From positions 124,001 to 188,000 of the forward strand of contig QHWB01000036.1 of assembly GCA_003222395.1 (NCBI GenBank): a stretch of DNA of 64,000 nucleotides. Direction: 5' to 3'. Both the position numbers and the translations under genes were made by a program. The notes beneath the pieces are model-generated. The model worked only from the letters and a program-made list of their open reading frames with translations, did not search any database and was not told the origin of the DNA. This DNA is from Acidobacteriota bacterium (GTDB lineage: Bacteria > Acidobacteriota > Vicinamibacteria > Vicinamibacterales > CAVVIG01). Positions 35,100-59,903 of this stretch are shown in pieces (the first letter of the stretch is position 1; every line of letters begins with the position of its first letter).

Positions 35100-36116
35100 T
35101 GGCGCCGTCACGGGCGGTCGACGGTGGTGCGTTGCCTGTTCGTACGCGTAAGCGAGACGGAACAGCGCCGGCTCGCTTCACGCGCGGCCGAAGAACTGGA
35201 GGCCCGCCGGCAGCCCGGCGTCCCCAACGCGCGGAGTGTGCGGGTTGGGGTGGAGCGTGCCGCCGCGGGTATAGCCCATCGGCACCGTGATCGCAGGGAA
35301 GCCGGTGCTCGGCGAGAACAGCTGGTTGTTGTCGCCGCCCGGCGTGTTGAGTTCGCCGATTCGTCGATCACCTTCACGACACCCGCCCGCAGCGTTGCGC
35401 GGAATTCATCGCGGCTGTTGCAGCCGGCGGACGAAGCAGGATCGTCCTCGGCCGCCTGGCCGGCTTCAAGGCGCCCCCTGGATGGACGGATGGAACTGGC
35501 GCGACTTGATGATTTCGTCGAGGGAACGGCTCGGCGCCTTGCCTCCGAGCGCGCCGAGATACTGATTCAGATCGTGCTTGAACTGATTGCAGCCGCCGGT
35601 CTGCGCGCGGCGCATGTCGTCGAAGCCGGCGACCGCGGCCGGATCGATCACCTCGGCCCCGAGATCGCGAAGCTCGCCAATCGCTCCGCTGAACAGCTCT
35701 TTGATCTCCGCATCGAGCATCGGCGTGTCGTACGCCTGATGCAGAACGCCGAGACGCGCCCCTTTCAGTCCGTCGCGGCGCAGCGAGTCGGCGTACTTCG
35801 GTTGTGAGGCGGGCCTTTCAGGCCCGCCTCCATCGCGGCCCTGAAAGGGCCGCGCTACAACTGTCACCGGATCGTCAGGATCGGAACCGGCAATGACTTG
35901 AAGCACCGCGGCCGTGTCGGCGACCGTGCGCGTGACGACGCCCGCGATGTCGGCGGCAAGGTTCAACGGCACGACACCGGCGCGGCTCACGAGGCCCATC
36001 GTCGATCGCAGGCCGACGAGCGCCTGATGCGACGCGGGACCGCGGGTGGAGGGACTTGAGCCGATGCCACCGCCGCGGCAATGGCTGCGGCGGTGACCAC
36101 ACGCGCACGTCGCATG
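35100..36116 (-). pseudogene. amidase-signature-family enzyme, multiply broken
   Basis: A normal signal peptide starts at 36116 (MRRARVVTAAAIAAAVASA). It is followed within a few codons, and in a shifted frame, by STRGPASHQALVGLRSTMGL, which belongs well inside the amidase signature region. The first half including the catalytic Lys is therefore deleted. The open part (35999-35466) continues with GVVTRTVADTAAVLQVIAG and GLKGARLGVLHQAYDTPM, interrupted by a palindromic element (35802-35860) that stays in frame. After SRQFHPSIQ the frame shifts; later pieces in other frames give [37 protein letters not shown]-type text and [12 protein letters not shown]. At least three lesions. Confidence 0.75.
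35802..35860. repeat. GCCTTTCAGGC-type palindromic element in amidase remnant
   Basis: Starts TTGTGAGGCGGGCCTTTCAG and ends CCTGAAAGGGCCGCGCTACAA read outward as imperfect inverted ends. The left half also folds alone (GGCGGG CCTTTCAGG CCCGCC) and so does the right (GCGGCCC TGAA AGGGCCGC). Same family as 54087-54167 and 59264-59340. Translates as ARPFQGRDGGGPERPA in the host frame. Confidence 0.7.
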
Positions 36117-52466: not shown

Positions 52467-54494
52467 ATGATCCAGCTCTCGAATTTGACGAAATCGTTCG
52501 GCGACCGCGTGCTGCTCGAAAACGTCACCTGGCAGATTACAGATCGGGAACGCGTCGGGCTGTGCGGCCCGAACGGCGCGGGTAAGACGACGCTGCTCAA
52601 GATGATGGCGGCGCTCGACGAGCCCGACGCGGGCGCCATCCTGAAGCCCGCGACGCTCACGGTCGGATATCTGCCGCAGGACGGCCTCACCCACGCGGGC
52701 CGTACGGTGTTCGACGAGGCGGCGAGCGCGTTCGGAGACCTGCTCGCAGTGAAGGCCGAGATGCACGCGCTCGAGGAACGTCTCGGGGATAGCGCGATCC
52801 CGGAGAACGAGCACGACGCGATGCTGCACCGCTACAGCGATCTCCAGGATCGCTTCCGCCTGAACGACGGCTACAGCATCGAGTTGAAGACCGCGACCGT
52901 GCTGCAGGGCCTTGGCTTCGAGACCGCGGACTTCGAGCGGCGCACCGAAACGTTCTCCGGCGGCTGGCAGATGCGCATCGCGCTCGCGAAGCTGCTGCTC
53001 GGGCAGCCGAACCTGCTGCTGCTCGACGAGCCGACCAACCATCTCGATCTGGAGGCGCGCAACTGGCTCGAGGAATATCTCAACGCCTATCTGCATGCGG
53101 TGATTCTCGTCTCGCACGACCGCTATTTCCTCGACGCCGTCGTCACGCGCATCGCCGACCTGACGCTCCGCACGTTGACCGATTACATCGGCAACTACAG
53201 CCACTATCTCGGCGAGCACGAAGCGCGCATCGAGGCGATGCGGAAGGCGAAGCGCGAGCAGGATGAAGAAGTCGCCCGCGTGAAGATGTTCATCGACCGC
53301 TTCCGCTACCAGGCGACGAAGGCGTCGCAGGTGCAGAGCCGGATCAAGATGCTCGAGAAGGTCGTGCCGATCGAAGTGCCGCCGGAGCGGAAGAAGATCC
53401 ACTTCGATTTTCCCGCGTGCGCGAAGAGCGGCCGCACGGTGCTGGAGCTGAAGCACGCGCACAAGGCGTACGGCGACCTCGTCGTCTTCAAGGACGTGAA
53501 CCTGCACCTCGAACGCGGCGATCGCATCGCGCTCGTCGGTCCCAACGGCGTCGGCAAATCGACCCTGATGCGCATGTTGTCGGGTGAGGAGGCGCCCGAC
53601 TCCGGTCACCGGAGCGTCGGCCACAACGTGGTGATGCAGTACTTCGCGCAGGACGAGGCGACGCGATTAGATCCTGCGCCGACCGTCTACGAGACGCTCG
53701 CGTCAGGATCGCCGCTGCACATGGTGCCGATGATTCGAAACATCCTCGGCGGATTCCTCTTCTCAGGTGACGACGTGTACAAATATGTTCGCGTGCTGTC
53801 GGGCGGCGAGCGCACGCGGCTCGCGGTCGCGCGCATGCTGCTGCGGCCGTCGAACACGCTGCTGCTCGACGAGCCGACCAACCATCTCGATCTCGACTCG
53901 AAGGAAGTCCTCCTCGACGCGCTCGTCGATTACGGCGGCACGCTCATCTTCGTCTCGCACGATCGCTACTTCGTCGAGCGTCTCGCGACGAAGATCATCG
54001 AGGTCGGCAACGGCACGGCGATCGTGTACCCAGGTACCTACAACGAATACCTATGGCATAAGGAGCAACCATCTGCGTCTCCCCAGGTAGCGCGAGCCTT
54101 TCAGGCGAGCGGACGACAGGCGAGCGGCAAGCCGAACGTTCGCTCGGCTAAAAGCCTCGCGCTACAAGAGACGACACCCCAACAGCAATCAAAGTCGCTG
54201 ACGCCGACCCAGTTACACGCCGATAAGAAGCGGCAGGACGCCGAAGCGCGCAAACGTCAGCGAGCGGCACAGCAGCGCCAGGCCGAAATCGACAAGCTCG
54301 AGAGCGAGATCGCCGAATGCGAAACCGCGATTCGCGAGATCGAGCAGACGATGTCGTCGCCCGGCTTCTACGACGATCGCGCCGCCGCGCAGCCGATCAT
54401 CGACAGGCACCAGGGGCTGATGTGGAAAGTCGGCCATCTGATGCACCGCTGGGAAGAACTGCAGGCGGCGGCGGATCTCACCGCTGGAGCCTGA
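52467..54494 (+). CDS. ABC-F family ATPase with in-frame palindromic insertion
   Basis: Soluble ABC-F protein of 675 aa, two ABC cassettes on one chain, which acts on the ribosome rather than in transport. Cassette 1 has GPNGAGKTT, the FSGGWQMRIALAKLLL signature and LLLLDEPTNHLDLE. The linker (about 245-310) has YRYQATKASQVQSRIKMLEK-type text (here FRYQATKASQVQSRIKMLEK). Cassette 2 has GPNGVGKST, LSGGERTRLAVARMLL and TLLLDEPTNHLDLD. A C-terminal coiled coil (about 590-665) matches Uup/YheS-type members. After TYNEYLWHKEQ, residues about 541-567 are encoded by an 81-bp palindromic element (54087-54167), a neat 27 codons, placed in the flexible region between cassette 2 and the coiled coil. Confidence 0.92.
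   Translation: MIQLSNLTKSFGDRVLLENVTWQITDRERVGLCGPNGAGKTTLLKMMAALDEPDAGAILKPATLTVGYLPQDGLTHAGRTVFDEAASAFGDLLAVKAEMHALEERLGDSAIPENEHDAMLHRYSDLQDRFRLNDGYSIELKTATVLQGLGFETADFERRTETFSGGWQMRIALAKLLLGQPNLLLLDEPTNHLDLEARNWLEEYLNAYLHAVILVSHDRYFLDAVVTRIADLTLRTLTDYIGNYSHYLGEHEARIEAMRKAKREQDEEVARVKMFIDRFRYQATKASQVQSRIKMLEKVVPIEVPPERKKIHFDFPACAKSGRTVLELKHAHKAYGDLVVFKDVNLHLERGDRIALVGPNGVGKSTLMRMLSGEEAPDSGHRSVGHNVVMQYFAQDEATRLDPAPTVYETLASGSPLHMVPMIRNILGGFLFSGDDVYKYVRVLSGGERTRLAVARMLLRPSNTLLLDEPTNHLDLDSKEVLLDALVDYGGTLIFVSHDRYFVERLATKIIEVGNGTAIVYPGTYNEYLWHKEQPSASPQVARAFQASGRQASGKPNVRSAKSLALQETTPQQQSKSLTPTQLHADKKRQDAEARKRQRAAQQRQAEIDKLESEIAECETAIREIEQTMSSPGFYDDRAAAQPIIDRHQGLMWKVGHLMHRWEELQAAADLTAGA
54087..54167. 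repeat. 81-bp palindromic element in ABC-F gene
   Basis: Starts GTAGCGCGAGCCTTTCAGGC and ends AAAAGCCTCGCGCTACAA; the ends are inverted copies with 14 of 16 bases matched. Length 81 bp, divisible by three, with no stop in the host frame. Homologous over its length to 59264-59340 and at its ends to 35802-35860. Confidence 0.8.
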
Positions 54495-57400: not shown

Positions 57401-58459
57401 CTACGGTTCCGCCTTTCGCGTCGCTCCTGCCTCTCCGGCCCTTCCTGCCTCTCGCGCCTTTCCGGCCCCTTCTGCCGTGCCCGCCATTCCTGCCATTCCC
57501 ACCCCTCCAGCTCTCGGATGACTTTTTCTATACACGTCCAACAACTGCGCCGCGTTCACGTGCGTATAGCGTTGCGTCGTGCCGAGCCGTGCGTGGCCGA
57601 GCAATTCCTGAATGGACCGCAGATCCGCACCGCGCTGCAGCAGGTGCGTCGCGAATGAATGCCGCAGCGCGTGCGGGCTGATGCCGGCGCGGGTGCTGCT
57701 CGCGGCGACGTACTTGCGAACGAGCCGGTCAACGCTGCGGACCGTTAGCCGTCCGCCGCGGTAATTGACGAACAACGGCTCGCGACGACGATTCTGGCGT
57801 CCGTCGGACTTGTGGCGTCCGGCTTCGGCGGGACTACCGCGAGGATCGCTGACGATTCCTTCCCGGTCGTTCAGATACTCTCGAATCGCCTTCATCGTCG
57901 TCGTGTTGAATGGGACGAGCCGCTGCTTGCGGCCCTTCCCCAACACGCGGACCATTCGCGCGCTCAGGTTCACGTCCTCCACGTCGAGGCCGGTCAGCTC
58001 GCTGAGACGGAGCCCGGACGCGTAGAACAGTTCGAGGATCGCGCGGTCTCTGCGCCCGAGCGCCGTTTCCTCCGACGCGGCGCCGAGCAGTGCGTCCATC
58101 TCGCTCTCGCTGAGATGCGCTGGCGTCCGAATCTCGCGCTTCGGCGTCGACACCATGGCACCCGGATCGCCCTCGATCTCGTCCTCGCGCCTGAGATACC
58201 GGATGAACGTCCTGGCGGCGGCCAGCTTTCGTGCCGCGGTCGCGCGCGACCGGCGCCGCTTGTGGAGGTCGGCAAGGAAGCTGCGGAGCGCCGTGCGATC
58301 GAGGTGCGCCGGCTTCACGTCGGCGCGCCGGACGCCGGCGAGCGCCGCGGCATGATCGATGAACTGAGCGAGATCGCTCTCGTACGCGCGCACGGTGTGC
58401 GGCGAAGCGTTGCGATTAAGCGCGAGAAACTTCAGGAACGCTTTCAGCTGTTCCGTCAT
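57401..58459 (-). CDS. xerC: site-specific tyrosine recombinase XerC
   Basis: Chromosome-dimer resolvase of 352 aa. The SAM-like N-terminal DNA-binding domain is at about 1-90 (LKAFLKFLALNRNASPHTVR). The catalytic domain shows Arg in ASGLRLSELTGL, Lys in GKGRKQRLVPF, HALRHSFATHLLQ, LGHARLGTTQRYTHV and the nucleophile Tyr in QRYTHV. Between EYLNDREGIV and EPLFVNYRGGRLT there is an extra 22-residue Arg/Gly/Asp-rich stretch where other XerC proteins have a short loop. The last 35 residues (GMAGMAGTAEGAG...) are encoded by a GC-rich tandem repeat. The ATG at 58459 lies 44 bp inside the trmFO 3' end, so both are cotranscribed. Confidence 0.93.
   Translation of the reverse strand: MTEQLKAFLKFLALNRNASPHTVRAYESDLAQFIDHAAALAGVRRADVKPAHLDRTALRSFLADLHKRRRSRATAARKLAAARTFIRYLRREDEIEGDPGAMVSTPKREIRTPAHLSESEMDALLGAASEETALGRRDRAILELFYASGLRLSELTGLDVEDVNLSARMVRVLGKGRKQRLVPFNTTTMKAIREYLNDREGIVSDPRGSPAEAGRHKSDGRQNRRREPLFVNYRGGRLTVRSVDRLVRKYVAASSTRAGISPHALRHSFATHLLQRGADLRSIQELLGHARLGTTQRYTHVNAAQLLDVYRKSHPRAGGVGMAGMAGTAEGAGKAREAGRAGEAGATRKAEP
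57424..57508. repeat. CCTTCCTGCC-type degenerate repeat forming the xerC tail
   Basis: Imperfect tandem units (TGCCTCTCCGGCCCTTCC, TGCCATTCC) on the plus strand encode the Gly/Ala/Glu tail of XerC on the minus strand. Confidence 0.5.
57783..57856. repeat. possible palindromic insertion in xerC
   Basis: TGGCGTCCGTCGGAC and TGTGGCGTCCGGCTTCGGCG then GGGACTACCGCGAGG: short stems around GGCGTCC and GTCCGGC/GCGGGAC, coinciding with the extra 22 residues in XerC. Family link to other elements is not shown. Confidence 0.35.
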
Positions 58460-59903
58460 GTCGTCGGGCGCGCCAGTCCTCGAGCGCGCGAAGCGCGCGC
58501 TCGGCAATCGCCAGCTTCTTTTCCATCTTTCCGCGTGGCGGCTTCGGAAGTGCCTCGATGATGCCGAAGGTGACGTTCGATGGCTCGTAATGCGCCGGAT
58601 TCGCGTGCGACACGTAATACGCAAGTGCGCCGATCGCCGTCGTCCGCGGTGGACAGGAGAGCGGCTCGCCTTTGACCATCGCCGCGGCGTTCAATCCGGC
58701 GAGCAGGCCGGACGCCGCCGATTCCACGTACCCTTCGACGCCCGACATCTGGCCGGCAAAGAACGTCGTGGGACGCCGCCGCACCTGCCACGTTTCGTCG
58801 AGCACGGTCGGCCCGTTGACGTACGTGTTGCGGTGCACCATGCCGAAGCGCACGAACTCCGCCTGCTCGAGGCCCGGAATCAGCCGCAGCACGCGCGCCT
58901 GATCGCCCCATTTGATTTGCGTCTGGAAGCCGACGAGGCTGAAGTGATCGCCGGCGAGATTGTCCTGCCGCAGCTGCACGGCGGCGTAGGGCTCCCGTCC
59001 GGTGCGCGGATCGACCAGCCCGACCGGCTTCATCGGACCGAAGCGGAGCGTGTCGCGGCCGCGATGCGCCATCACCTCGATCGGCAGACAGCCTTCGAAG
59101 AACCGCTCCTTGTCGAAGTCGTGAACCGTCGCCGATTCCGCGGCAACGAGCGCGTCGTGGAAGCGATCGTACTCTTCGCGCGTGAAGGGGCAATTCAGGT
59201 AGTCGCCTTCCCCACCGTCGACACCGCACGCCCGTGCTGGTGGCTCGGCGATCCGACGTAGACGTAGGGCGGGCCTTTCAGGCGAGCCGGTATCGTCAGG
59301 CGAGCCGGAATCGCGCGGCTGAATGCCTCGGGCTCCATCGCAACCGAGACTGCGATTCCAGCGCGACGCGCGAAAGACCCTCGAGCGATCGATCGTGTCC
59401 GCAAGGACGATTGGACTGATGGCGTCGTAGAAATAGAGATGACCGGTGCCGACGAGCGCGGCGATCTCGGCCGACAACGCGTCCGACGTCAGGGGGCCGG
59501 TGGCGACGACGACGGGGGCGCGTTCGCTAGACGCCGGCAGCGTCGTCACCTCTTCGCGGACGATCGAAATCAACGGATGACCCGCCAGCGTCGTGGTGAT
59601 CGCGTCCGCGAACCGCTCGCGATCGACCGCGAGCGCCGCGCCGGCAGGCACGCGGCTCTCCTCGGCCGCGCGCATCACGAGCGATCCGAGGCGCCGCATC
59701 TCCTCTTTCAAGAGACCCACGGCGTTGTCGAGCTTGTCGCCGCGAAACGAATTGCTGCACACGAGCTCGGCGAGGCGGTCGGTCTTGTGGACAGCCGTCG
59801 GACGCACGGGCCGCATCTCGTGGAGCGTCACCGCGACGCCCTGCGATGCGGCCTGCCAGGCGGCCTCAGATCCGGCAAGGCCGCCGCCGATGATTCTGAT
59901 CAT
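58416..59903 (-). CDS. trmFO: folate-dependent tRNA (uracil-54) methyltransferase TrmFO, with in-frame insertion
   Basis: FAD/folate-dependent enzyme of 495 aa that makes T54 in tRNA (formerly GidA-like, Gid). MIRIIGGGLAGSEAAWQAAS is the FAD dinucleotide-binding start. Then HKTDRLAELVCSNSFRGD and LYFYDAISPIVLADTID appear, and later the tetrahydrofolate region DYLNCPFTREEYDRFHDAL, LRFGPMKPVGLVDPRTGREP and GQMSGVEGYVESAASGLLAG. Between VFRASRW and GGEGDYLNCP about 48 residues are inserted, of which 25 are encoded by a palindromic element (59264-59340). Ordinary members run almost directly from one motif to the other. The open frame suggests a tolerated surface loop. Confidence 0.93.
   Translation of the reverse strand: MIRIIGGGLAGSEAAWQAASQGVAVTLHEMRPVRPTAVHKTDRLAELVCSNSFRGDKLDNAVGLLKEEMRRLGSLVMRAAEESRVPAGAALAVDRERFADAITTTLAGHPLISIVREEVTTLPASSERAPVVVATGPLTSDALSAEIAALVGTGHLYFYDAISPIVLADTIDRSRVFRASRWNRSLGCDGARGIQPRDSGSPDDTGSPERPALRLRRIAEPPARACGVDGGEGDYLNCPFTREEYDRFHDALVAAESATVHDFDKERFFEGCLPIEVMAHRGRDTLRFGPMKPVGLVDPRTGREPYAAVQLRQDNLAGDHFSLVGFQTQIKWGDQARVLRLIPGLEQAEFVRFGMVHRNTYVNGPTVLDETWQVRRRPTTFFAGQMSGVEGYVESAASGLLAGLNAAAMVKGEPLSCPPRTTAIGALAYYVSHANPAHYEPSNVTFGIIEALPKPPRGKMEKKLAIAERALRALEDWRARRHDGTAESVPEVSRA
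59264..59340. repeat. palindromic element in trmFO
   Basis: Begins GTAGGGCGGGCCTTTCAGGC and ends CGGCTGAATGCCTCGGGCTC then CATCG. Aligns with 54087-54167 along its length: the start, the internal TCAGGCGAGCCGG repeat, CGGCT-A-A-GCCTCG and the end. Slightly shorter (about 77 bp); more diverged at the right end. Confidence 0.7.

Follow-up and report, generated by a model that had tools for sequence, protein, structure and literature searches.

REPs are usually treated as extragenic elements. GTAG and CGTC REPs inside genes of several species, including GTAG copies in frame, were described in 2013 (PMC3733652). According to the available text of that study, dimers or groups with a coding length of 20-30 residues make up over half of the inserts found in genes, and insertions in flexible linkers were proposed to be possibly neutral. 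Different REPs at about the same site are reported in this text for recB of two Xanthomonas species only. The intragenic repeats of R. conorii are assigned there to RPE-4 and RPE-6, and no transposase is associated with the CGTC repeats in the same text. The REP-rayt-REP arrangement was described in PMC2817692. In the available part of PMC8266576, the biochemistry of cleavage is given for enzymes from E. coli, Stenotrophomonas, and Marinomonas. TnpAREP enzymes cut single-stranded REP at CT beside the hairpin, one of them also at CA, and E. coli TnpAREP also joins strands in vitro.

The element analyzed here lies in the gene of an ABC-F ATPase, in a window of 64,000 nucleotides from an Acidobacteriota genome (Table 1). 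This element belongs to the known REP/RAYT kind and is a doublet of GTAG-tagged REPs. The initial annotation described it as an 81-bp palindromic element in frame, and its sequence, coordinates, frame, and inverted ends were all reproduced. The 81 bases are stop-free in the ABC-F frame and are read as residues 541-567, VARAFQASGRQASGKPNVRSAKSLALQ. The length of 81 holds for this reading in frame, but the natural unit, GTAG...CTAC, is 79 bp (54087-54165) and consists of two inverted GTAG REPs. The final two bases (AA) complete a multiple of three and are not assignable to either the insert or the host.

The layout of the first REP is GTAG-CGC-GA-GCC-TTTCA-GGC-GA-GCG. It is the commonest 25-mer of the REP family in this genome (56 of the 216 cores in a four-contig sample), and the second REP is a variant with a TTTTA loop (6 of the 216). 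When the 81 bases are folded as single-stranded DNA, the energy is -30.2 kcal/mol (z -6.1), and 0 of 200 shuffles are as low. The two inverted REPs thus fold into one predicted hairpin, as in a REPIN/BIME. The 19-base core has 4 matches in the window, against a mean of 0.02 in shuffles, and 2 of them are the halves of the ABC-F element.

Table 1. Coordinates of the ABC-F gene, the parts of its insert, the related doublets in the window, and the transposase ORF (contig C106)
Feature	Position	Strand	Description
ABC-F ATPase, 675 aa	52467-54494	+	two ABC cassettes, Xtn linker, C-terminal coiled-coil domain
REP 1	54087-54111	+	GTAG head and imperfect palindrome, TTTCA loop
Spacer between both REPs	54112-54140	.	
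REP 2	54141-54165	-	inverted, giving a doublet with outer GTAG; self-match 54165-54141
Insert read in frame	54087-54167	+	inside the sole segment with pLDDT <50
REP doublet in partial amidase gene	35804-35858	+	gene 35466-35999, minus strand
REP doublet in trmFO, in frame	59264-59336	+	gene 58416-59903, minus strand
RAYT ORF, 163 aa	C106:59003-59494		NF047646, 100.5 bits, cut-off 80

The element is not unique in its genome, and the genome search proposed in the initial annotation gave at least 113 BLAST matches to the 81 bp (E <=10; 40 of the 331 candidate regions scored). The core pattern GTAGCGCGRGSCTTTCAGSC has 709 matches (365 + 344) with up to 3 mismatches in the 7.74-Mb genome, while the control pattern read backwards has 21 (13 + 8). 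A chance palindrome is ruled out by the shuffled folds, the shuffled core counts, and this genome-wide difference.

A sample of four contigs (1.554 Mb, 20% of the genome) contains 216 cores in 95 clusters, and about 4 of the 216 are expected by chance based on the control. Of these clusters, 39 consist of a single core, 39 are inverted doublets (25 '-+', 14 '+-'), and 1 is a direct doublet; the rest are larger groups and arrays. The GTAG head is conserved over the 216 cores (G97 T89 A81 G98 %), which were collected with a pattern starting with GTAG with up to 3 mismatches permitted. Stem positions 11 and 19, at each of which the pattern permits both letters, covary (C-G in 46 and G-C in 35 of the 92 distinct 25-mers). 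The GA/AG mismatch at positions 8-9/21-22 is retained in 63 and 61 of these 92; in the E. coli REP, conserved stem mismatches are reported to be required for activity (PMC8266576). The family thus has the features of the GTAG REP superfamily, which are the GTAG tag outside the stem, a compensated imperfect palindrome, a high copy number, and a mostly extragenic location. Two patterns for CGTC-type palindromes found one site in the sampled contigs, and this site itself bears a GTAG head. An array of 18 REP cores, mostly with 36-base spacing, was observed near the end of a predicted gene (C1:153414-154053). The coding score of this gene is modest, and the array in frame would be read as a predicted peptide of repeated GSASLSGERES.

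The genome has a single match to PF01797 (C106:59066-59383), outside the window. The ORF containing it exceeds the cut-off of NF047646, the REP-associated tyrosine transposase. Among solved structures, E. coli TnpArep (4er8, E 1.5e-5) is the closest in sequence and aligns with it over the HxH region. Upstream of the RAYT ORF are 17 REP cores (C106:58365-58965), 2 on the minus strand followed by 15 on the plus strand, and the latter are direct copies with ~36-base spacing. Downstream are 4 minus-strand cores (C106:59505-59621). The rayt gene is therefore located between inverted REPs of its own family. The REP array in which this RAYT is embedded, one of several in the genome, is at L031:795-1405 and 1936-2058 in local coordinates of contig C106, outside the window. 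The ORF upstream of the RAYT (L031:44-805), which we take to be truA-like, stops at a TGA located within the first REP of the array.

Because of the genome-wide REP family and the RAYT flanked by its cores, the element is assigned to the known REP/RAYT kind. The initial annotation could not match it to a described family, and this statement is superseded. The likeness to the palindromes of Rickettsia drawn there stands as an analogy; membership in RPE-4 or RPE-6 is rejected because the CGTC tag is absent and the tag is GTAG.

It is very likely that this doublet, a REPIN/BIME served by a RAYT, was inserted in the linker of the ABC-F gene, and that copies hitting genes are mostly purged, with tolerated copies in frame being left. 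The element would be a non-autonomous copy, like several hundred others in the genome, all of which probably depend on its single RAYT. By analogy with the enzymes from E. coli, Stenotrophomonas, and Marinomonas, REPs would be inserted via single-strand transposase chemistry, and the ABC-F copy was presumably mobilized by the genome's own RAYT. Selection would purge most of the copies that hit genes, and the survivors would be stop-free and in frame, with a tendency towards linkers or loops. In the ABC-F gene, the doublet would have landed in the linker that joins the second cassette to the C-terminal coiled coil, adding ~27 residues. The gene is probably translated through the insert, and the added peptide is most likely near-neutral for ABC-F. 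The earlier proposal of a mobile palindrome, one that contributes an in-frame peptide to the flexible region linking the second cassette to the coiled coil, is thus retained.

Genic copies were counted in the sampled contigs with a home-made gene caller (1295 genes, 89.3% coding). Among the 95 clusters, 34 are fully and 22 partly inside predicted genes, and 39 are intergenic. Only 17 clusters are deeply intragenic, that is, at least 30 codons from both ends of a well-scoring gene, while 60.1 are expected by random placement, indicating strong though incomplete depletion. As the starts called by this home-made caller are possibly misplaced, 34/95 and 17/95 are approximate. The 17 deep clusters comprise 11 doublets or triplets and 6 single cores; 2 of these 6, one within a HisKA kinase and one within a sigma-54 regulator, resemble native sequence. 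Intragenic cores are read in the phase giving VARAFQ (19), PERLAL (15), SASLSGE (4), LKGSRY (3), or the stop phase (1), where cores within one doublet are non-independent and the gene caller may prefer a phase. For both reverse phases, the labels were set manually on the 20-base core, since those of the script refer to a 25-base core.

Pfam covered 18 of the 34 host genes, ABC-F included; L180:1285-2958 has no match. The recognized hosts include a 3-hydroxyacyl-CoA dehydrogenase/enoyl-CoA hydratase fusion (FadB/FadJ-like), galactokinase, histidine ammonia-lyase, DcuC, a ComEC-like protein, an Hrq1-like helicase, TrmFO, Mur ligase, and an MFS transporter. The FadB/FadJ-like fusion is below every NCBIfam cut-off, and its gene in this genome contains one REP only. 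In the MFS transporter, the REP precedes the matched domain, and a misplaced start is possible. The related copies that the initial annotation had noticed in trmFO and in an amidase remnant are both present (Table 1). TrmFO scores 598.6 bits against TIGR00137 (cut-off 428.65) with the match split in two stretches, and its linker is 37 residues in this genome, compared with 4-16 in 18 of the 30 sequences. The amidase fragment covers only positions 172-276 of the 445 in the Amidase profile.

The ABC-F protein shows two ABC_tran domains, ABC_tran_Xtn (231-313), and ABC_tran_CTD (602-666), the last still detected past the insert. It scores 490 bits against NF000355 (cut-off 380) and is 77-80% identical to its best full-length orthologues. 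Matches were found in all 31 genomes searched, its own included, and 30 of them are orthologue-like; those in G002 and G013 are partial, and the best match in G009 is 44% identical. The named relatives are metagenome-assembled, with labels mostly of Acidobacteria and several of Vicinamibacterales or Luteitalea. In the AlphaFold model (35-sequence alignment, mean pLDDT 86.5), residues 537-579 are the sole segment below 50, and they contain the insert.

The initial annotation proposed to align the ABC-F protein with orthologues to see whether the insertion is clean. The linkers are long and variable in most orthologues. As they differ in both sequence and length, no clean insertion is demonstrable residue by residue in ABC-F, and the insert ends are not fixable to the base. 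A clean insertion is seen in histidine ammonia-lyase, where the REP peptide is located in a loop in this genome; in 8 of the 13 relatives, the loop from LIGEGE (or its counterpart) to the next helix is short. It is also seen in TrmFO, in the form of a variable linker that is short in most of the sequences. Among 99 ABC-F loci with a recovered ORF, including duplicates and some loci truncated by contig ends, VARAFQ or SLALQ is present in the sequence under study alone. An ancient shared peptide is thereby ruled out, and distant orthologues with the same 27 residues, which would have contradicted the initial annotation, are absent among the 99 loci. The lone partial string in the other loci is ERLAL in L033 (on the same contig as L110), a match with 5 mismatches.

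The same linkers contain other palindromes in some other genera. Type B, another GTAG/GTGG REP, is present as a doublet in the ABC-F linker of G016 and of a named contig (L093). With at most 40 candidate regions scored per genome, at least 74 copies of type B were counted in G016, at least 77 in G036, at least 15 in G037, at least 29 in G014, and at least 1 in G012, and none among the matches listed for the genome under study (G000) or G010. In G016, a Y1 transposase gene (C37:131679-132002) adjoins copies of type B (C37:131328-131545). Type E, a palindromic repeat without the GTAG head (GGGGTGGGGCCCC), occupies the ABC-F linker in three genera (G011, G012, and G014). Multiple copies of it exist in 7 of the 8 genomes searched, G000 included. 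Sixteen of the 19 sample hits of type E in G000 (contigs C1, C14, C25, and C106) are intergenic, often with an ATG just downstream; the repeat was also noted at L120:1280-1400. Type E may be a 5' untranslated or terminator element.

Cores of type C or D, which are further GTAG-type REPs, are present in the TrmFO linkers of G005, G010, G012, and G017, and FadB/FadJ-like linkers have REPs in G005 and G009 (three copies) as well as in G000. A degenerate C/D pattern matches 20 of the 27 genomes of the family, with 361 matches in G014, and the control has 0 in all 27. PF01797 is found in 18 of the 27; G006, G011, and G012, for example, have REP-like cores and no PF01797 match, some genomes being incomplete.

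In total, 11 of the 136 distinct orthologue linkers contain a core of types A-D with up to 3 mismatches (2 of the 11 are from G000), a count that favors linkers since it was here that types B-D came to notice, B in ABC-F and both C and D in TrmFO, before their genome-wide occurrence was confirmed. By host, they are 4 of 86 for ABC-F, 5 of 30 for TrmFO, and 2 of 20 for the FadB/FadJ-like protein; among the 86 ABC-F linkers, five are cut by a contig end and one has an N run. The FadB/FadJ-like copy of G000 differs from the strict core at 4 positions and is left out of the 11. Outside the linkers, the same ORFs (256 kb) contain no core of types A-D. If only type A is considered, the type defined from G000, three foreign linkers remain (L032, L286, and L296), each with 3 mismatches. 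No REP core was found with up to 4 mismatches in 13 orthologues of histidine ammonia-lyase (21.6 kb), some of which are expanded otherwise, and this counts against an exceptionless rule. Recurrence at the same linker was thus observed in three of the four host proteins tested.

Repetitive peptides other than REPs also fill such linkers or loops in relatives, for example QPPATSSSH, GAKGA, and GRQDG (L307; L047, L082, L092). The linkers of these genomes seem to collect several kinds of repeat. Contigs of some relatives end within the ABC-F linker, but these ends are not taken as proof of a repeat: L082 stops in a simple repeat, and at the other ends no REP precedes the break.

The presence of different palindromes in the same linkers suggests that REPs keep supplying new linker peptides. 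It is tentatively proposed, at somewhat less than an even chance, that RAYT-REP systems are a lasting source of linkers in this acidobacterial family, and that the same disordered linkers of housekeeping proteins were repeatedly colonized or overwritten in frame by the REPs of each lineage.

A less probable scenario, though one to be taken seriously, is a single old insertion per linker that was then overwritten in place by the REPs of each lineage through gene conversion. The FadB/FadJ-like linkers of G000, G005, and G009 have REPs in place of the linker sequence that most other relatives share, as expected from overwriting; those of G010 and G024 are missing the shared sequence too, but they have no REP core. 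In the ABC-F tree (24 rows), the carriers of types A, B, and E do not form one group, which argues against overwriting; 6 of the 21 inner branches are well supported, and separate insertion and replacement in place are therefore not separable in this tree. The linker sequence flanking the repeats is not alignable between types, which is also against overwriting.

It is rather unlikely that the insert was exapted, its longer linker or basic residues altering ABC-F function through the reach of the coiled coil on the ribosome or RNA. A selected function would fit the recurrence of REPs at shared linkers, the palindromic repeats of other types that occupy this linker in other genera, and the long, variable linkers of most orthologues. 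However, the peptides of different genera have no common sequence, 82 of the 86 distinct ABC-F linkers have no core of types A-D with up to 3 mismatches (three more hold type E), and disorder accounts for the tolerance equally well.

The strong hairpin at a domain boundary, computed as DNA, could also imply an element acting at the RNA level, in which the mRNA hairpin would delay the ribosome after cassette 2 and before the coiled coil, or would mark an internal cleavage site, and the peptide would be a by-product. This is quite improbable, as ribosomes generally unwind such hairpins and the FadB/FadJ-like host has a single REP. An artefact of assembly or binning is most improbable of all: the metagenome-assembled genome is in 118 contigs and contigs of some relatives break in the same linker (L041/G017, L074/G028, L082, and L086), but the element lies inside a 189-kb contig with the frame open across it, and other assemblies carry other repeats at the same linker.

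The genome has hundreds of REPs, many of them intragenic, and three host proteins have different REPs at the same linker depending on the genus. These linkers form a natural series in which to ask if protein sequence is shaped by domesticated transposase systems, and at which sites a protein tolerates insertion. Annotation of this genome calls for caution with VARAFQA, SPERLALQ, RLKGSRY, and similar peptides, which can represent translated REPs. Among the top-ranked open-licence literature, no report of intragenic REPs in Acidobacteria was found.

The element resembles REPINs (PMC3116915, 2011) in the inverted doublet as the apparent replicating unit, the predicted hairpin, and the RAYT in the genome. 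In contrast to the REPINs of Pseudomonas, which are counted extragenically in the available text of PMC3116915, 34 of the 95 clusters here are in predicted genes. As with the RPEs of Rickettsia, palindromic repeats are in frame in many unrelated genes; the RPEs belong to another phylum and are set apart by the description of their tag, being of CGTC type in the available text of PMC3733652. The closest likeness is to the GTAG REPs of that study, in the GTAG head, the short imperfect palindrome, the inverted dimers, the tyrosine transposase, and the genic copies in frame. The stem and loop sequence of the ABC-F element does not appear in the available part of the study, and the main text names Acidobacteriota, the present host group, once, for transposases. 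What is added to the known intragenic GTAG REPs is this host group and the recurrence in three proteins.
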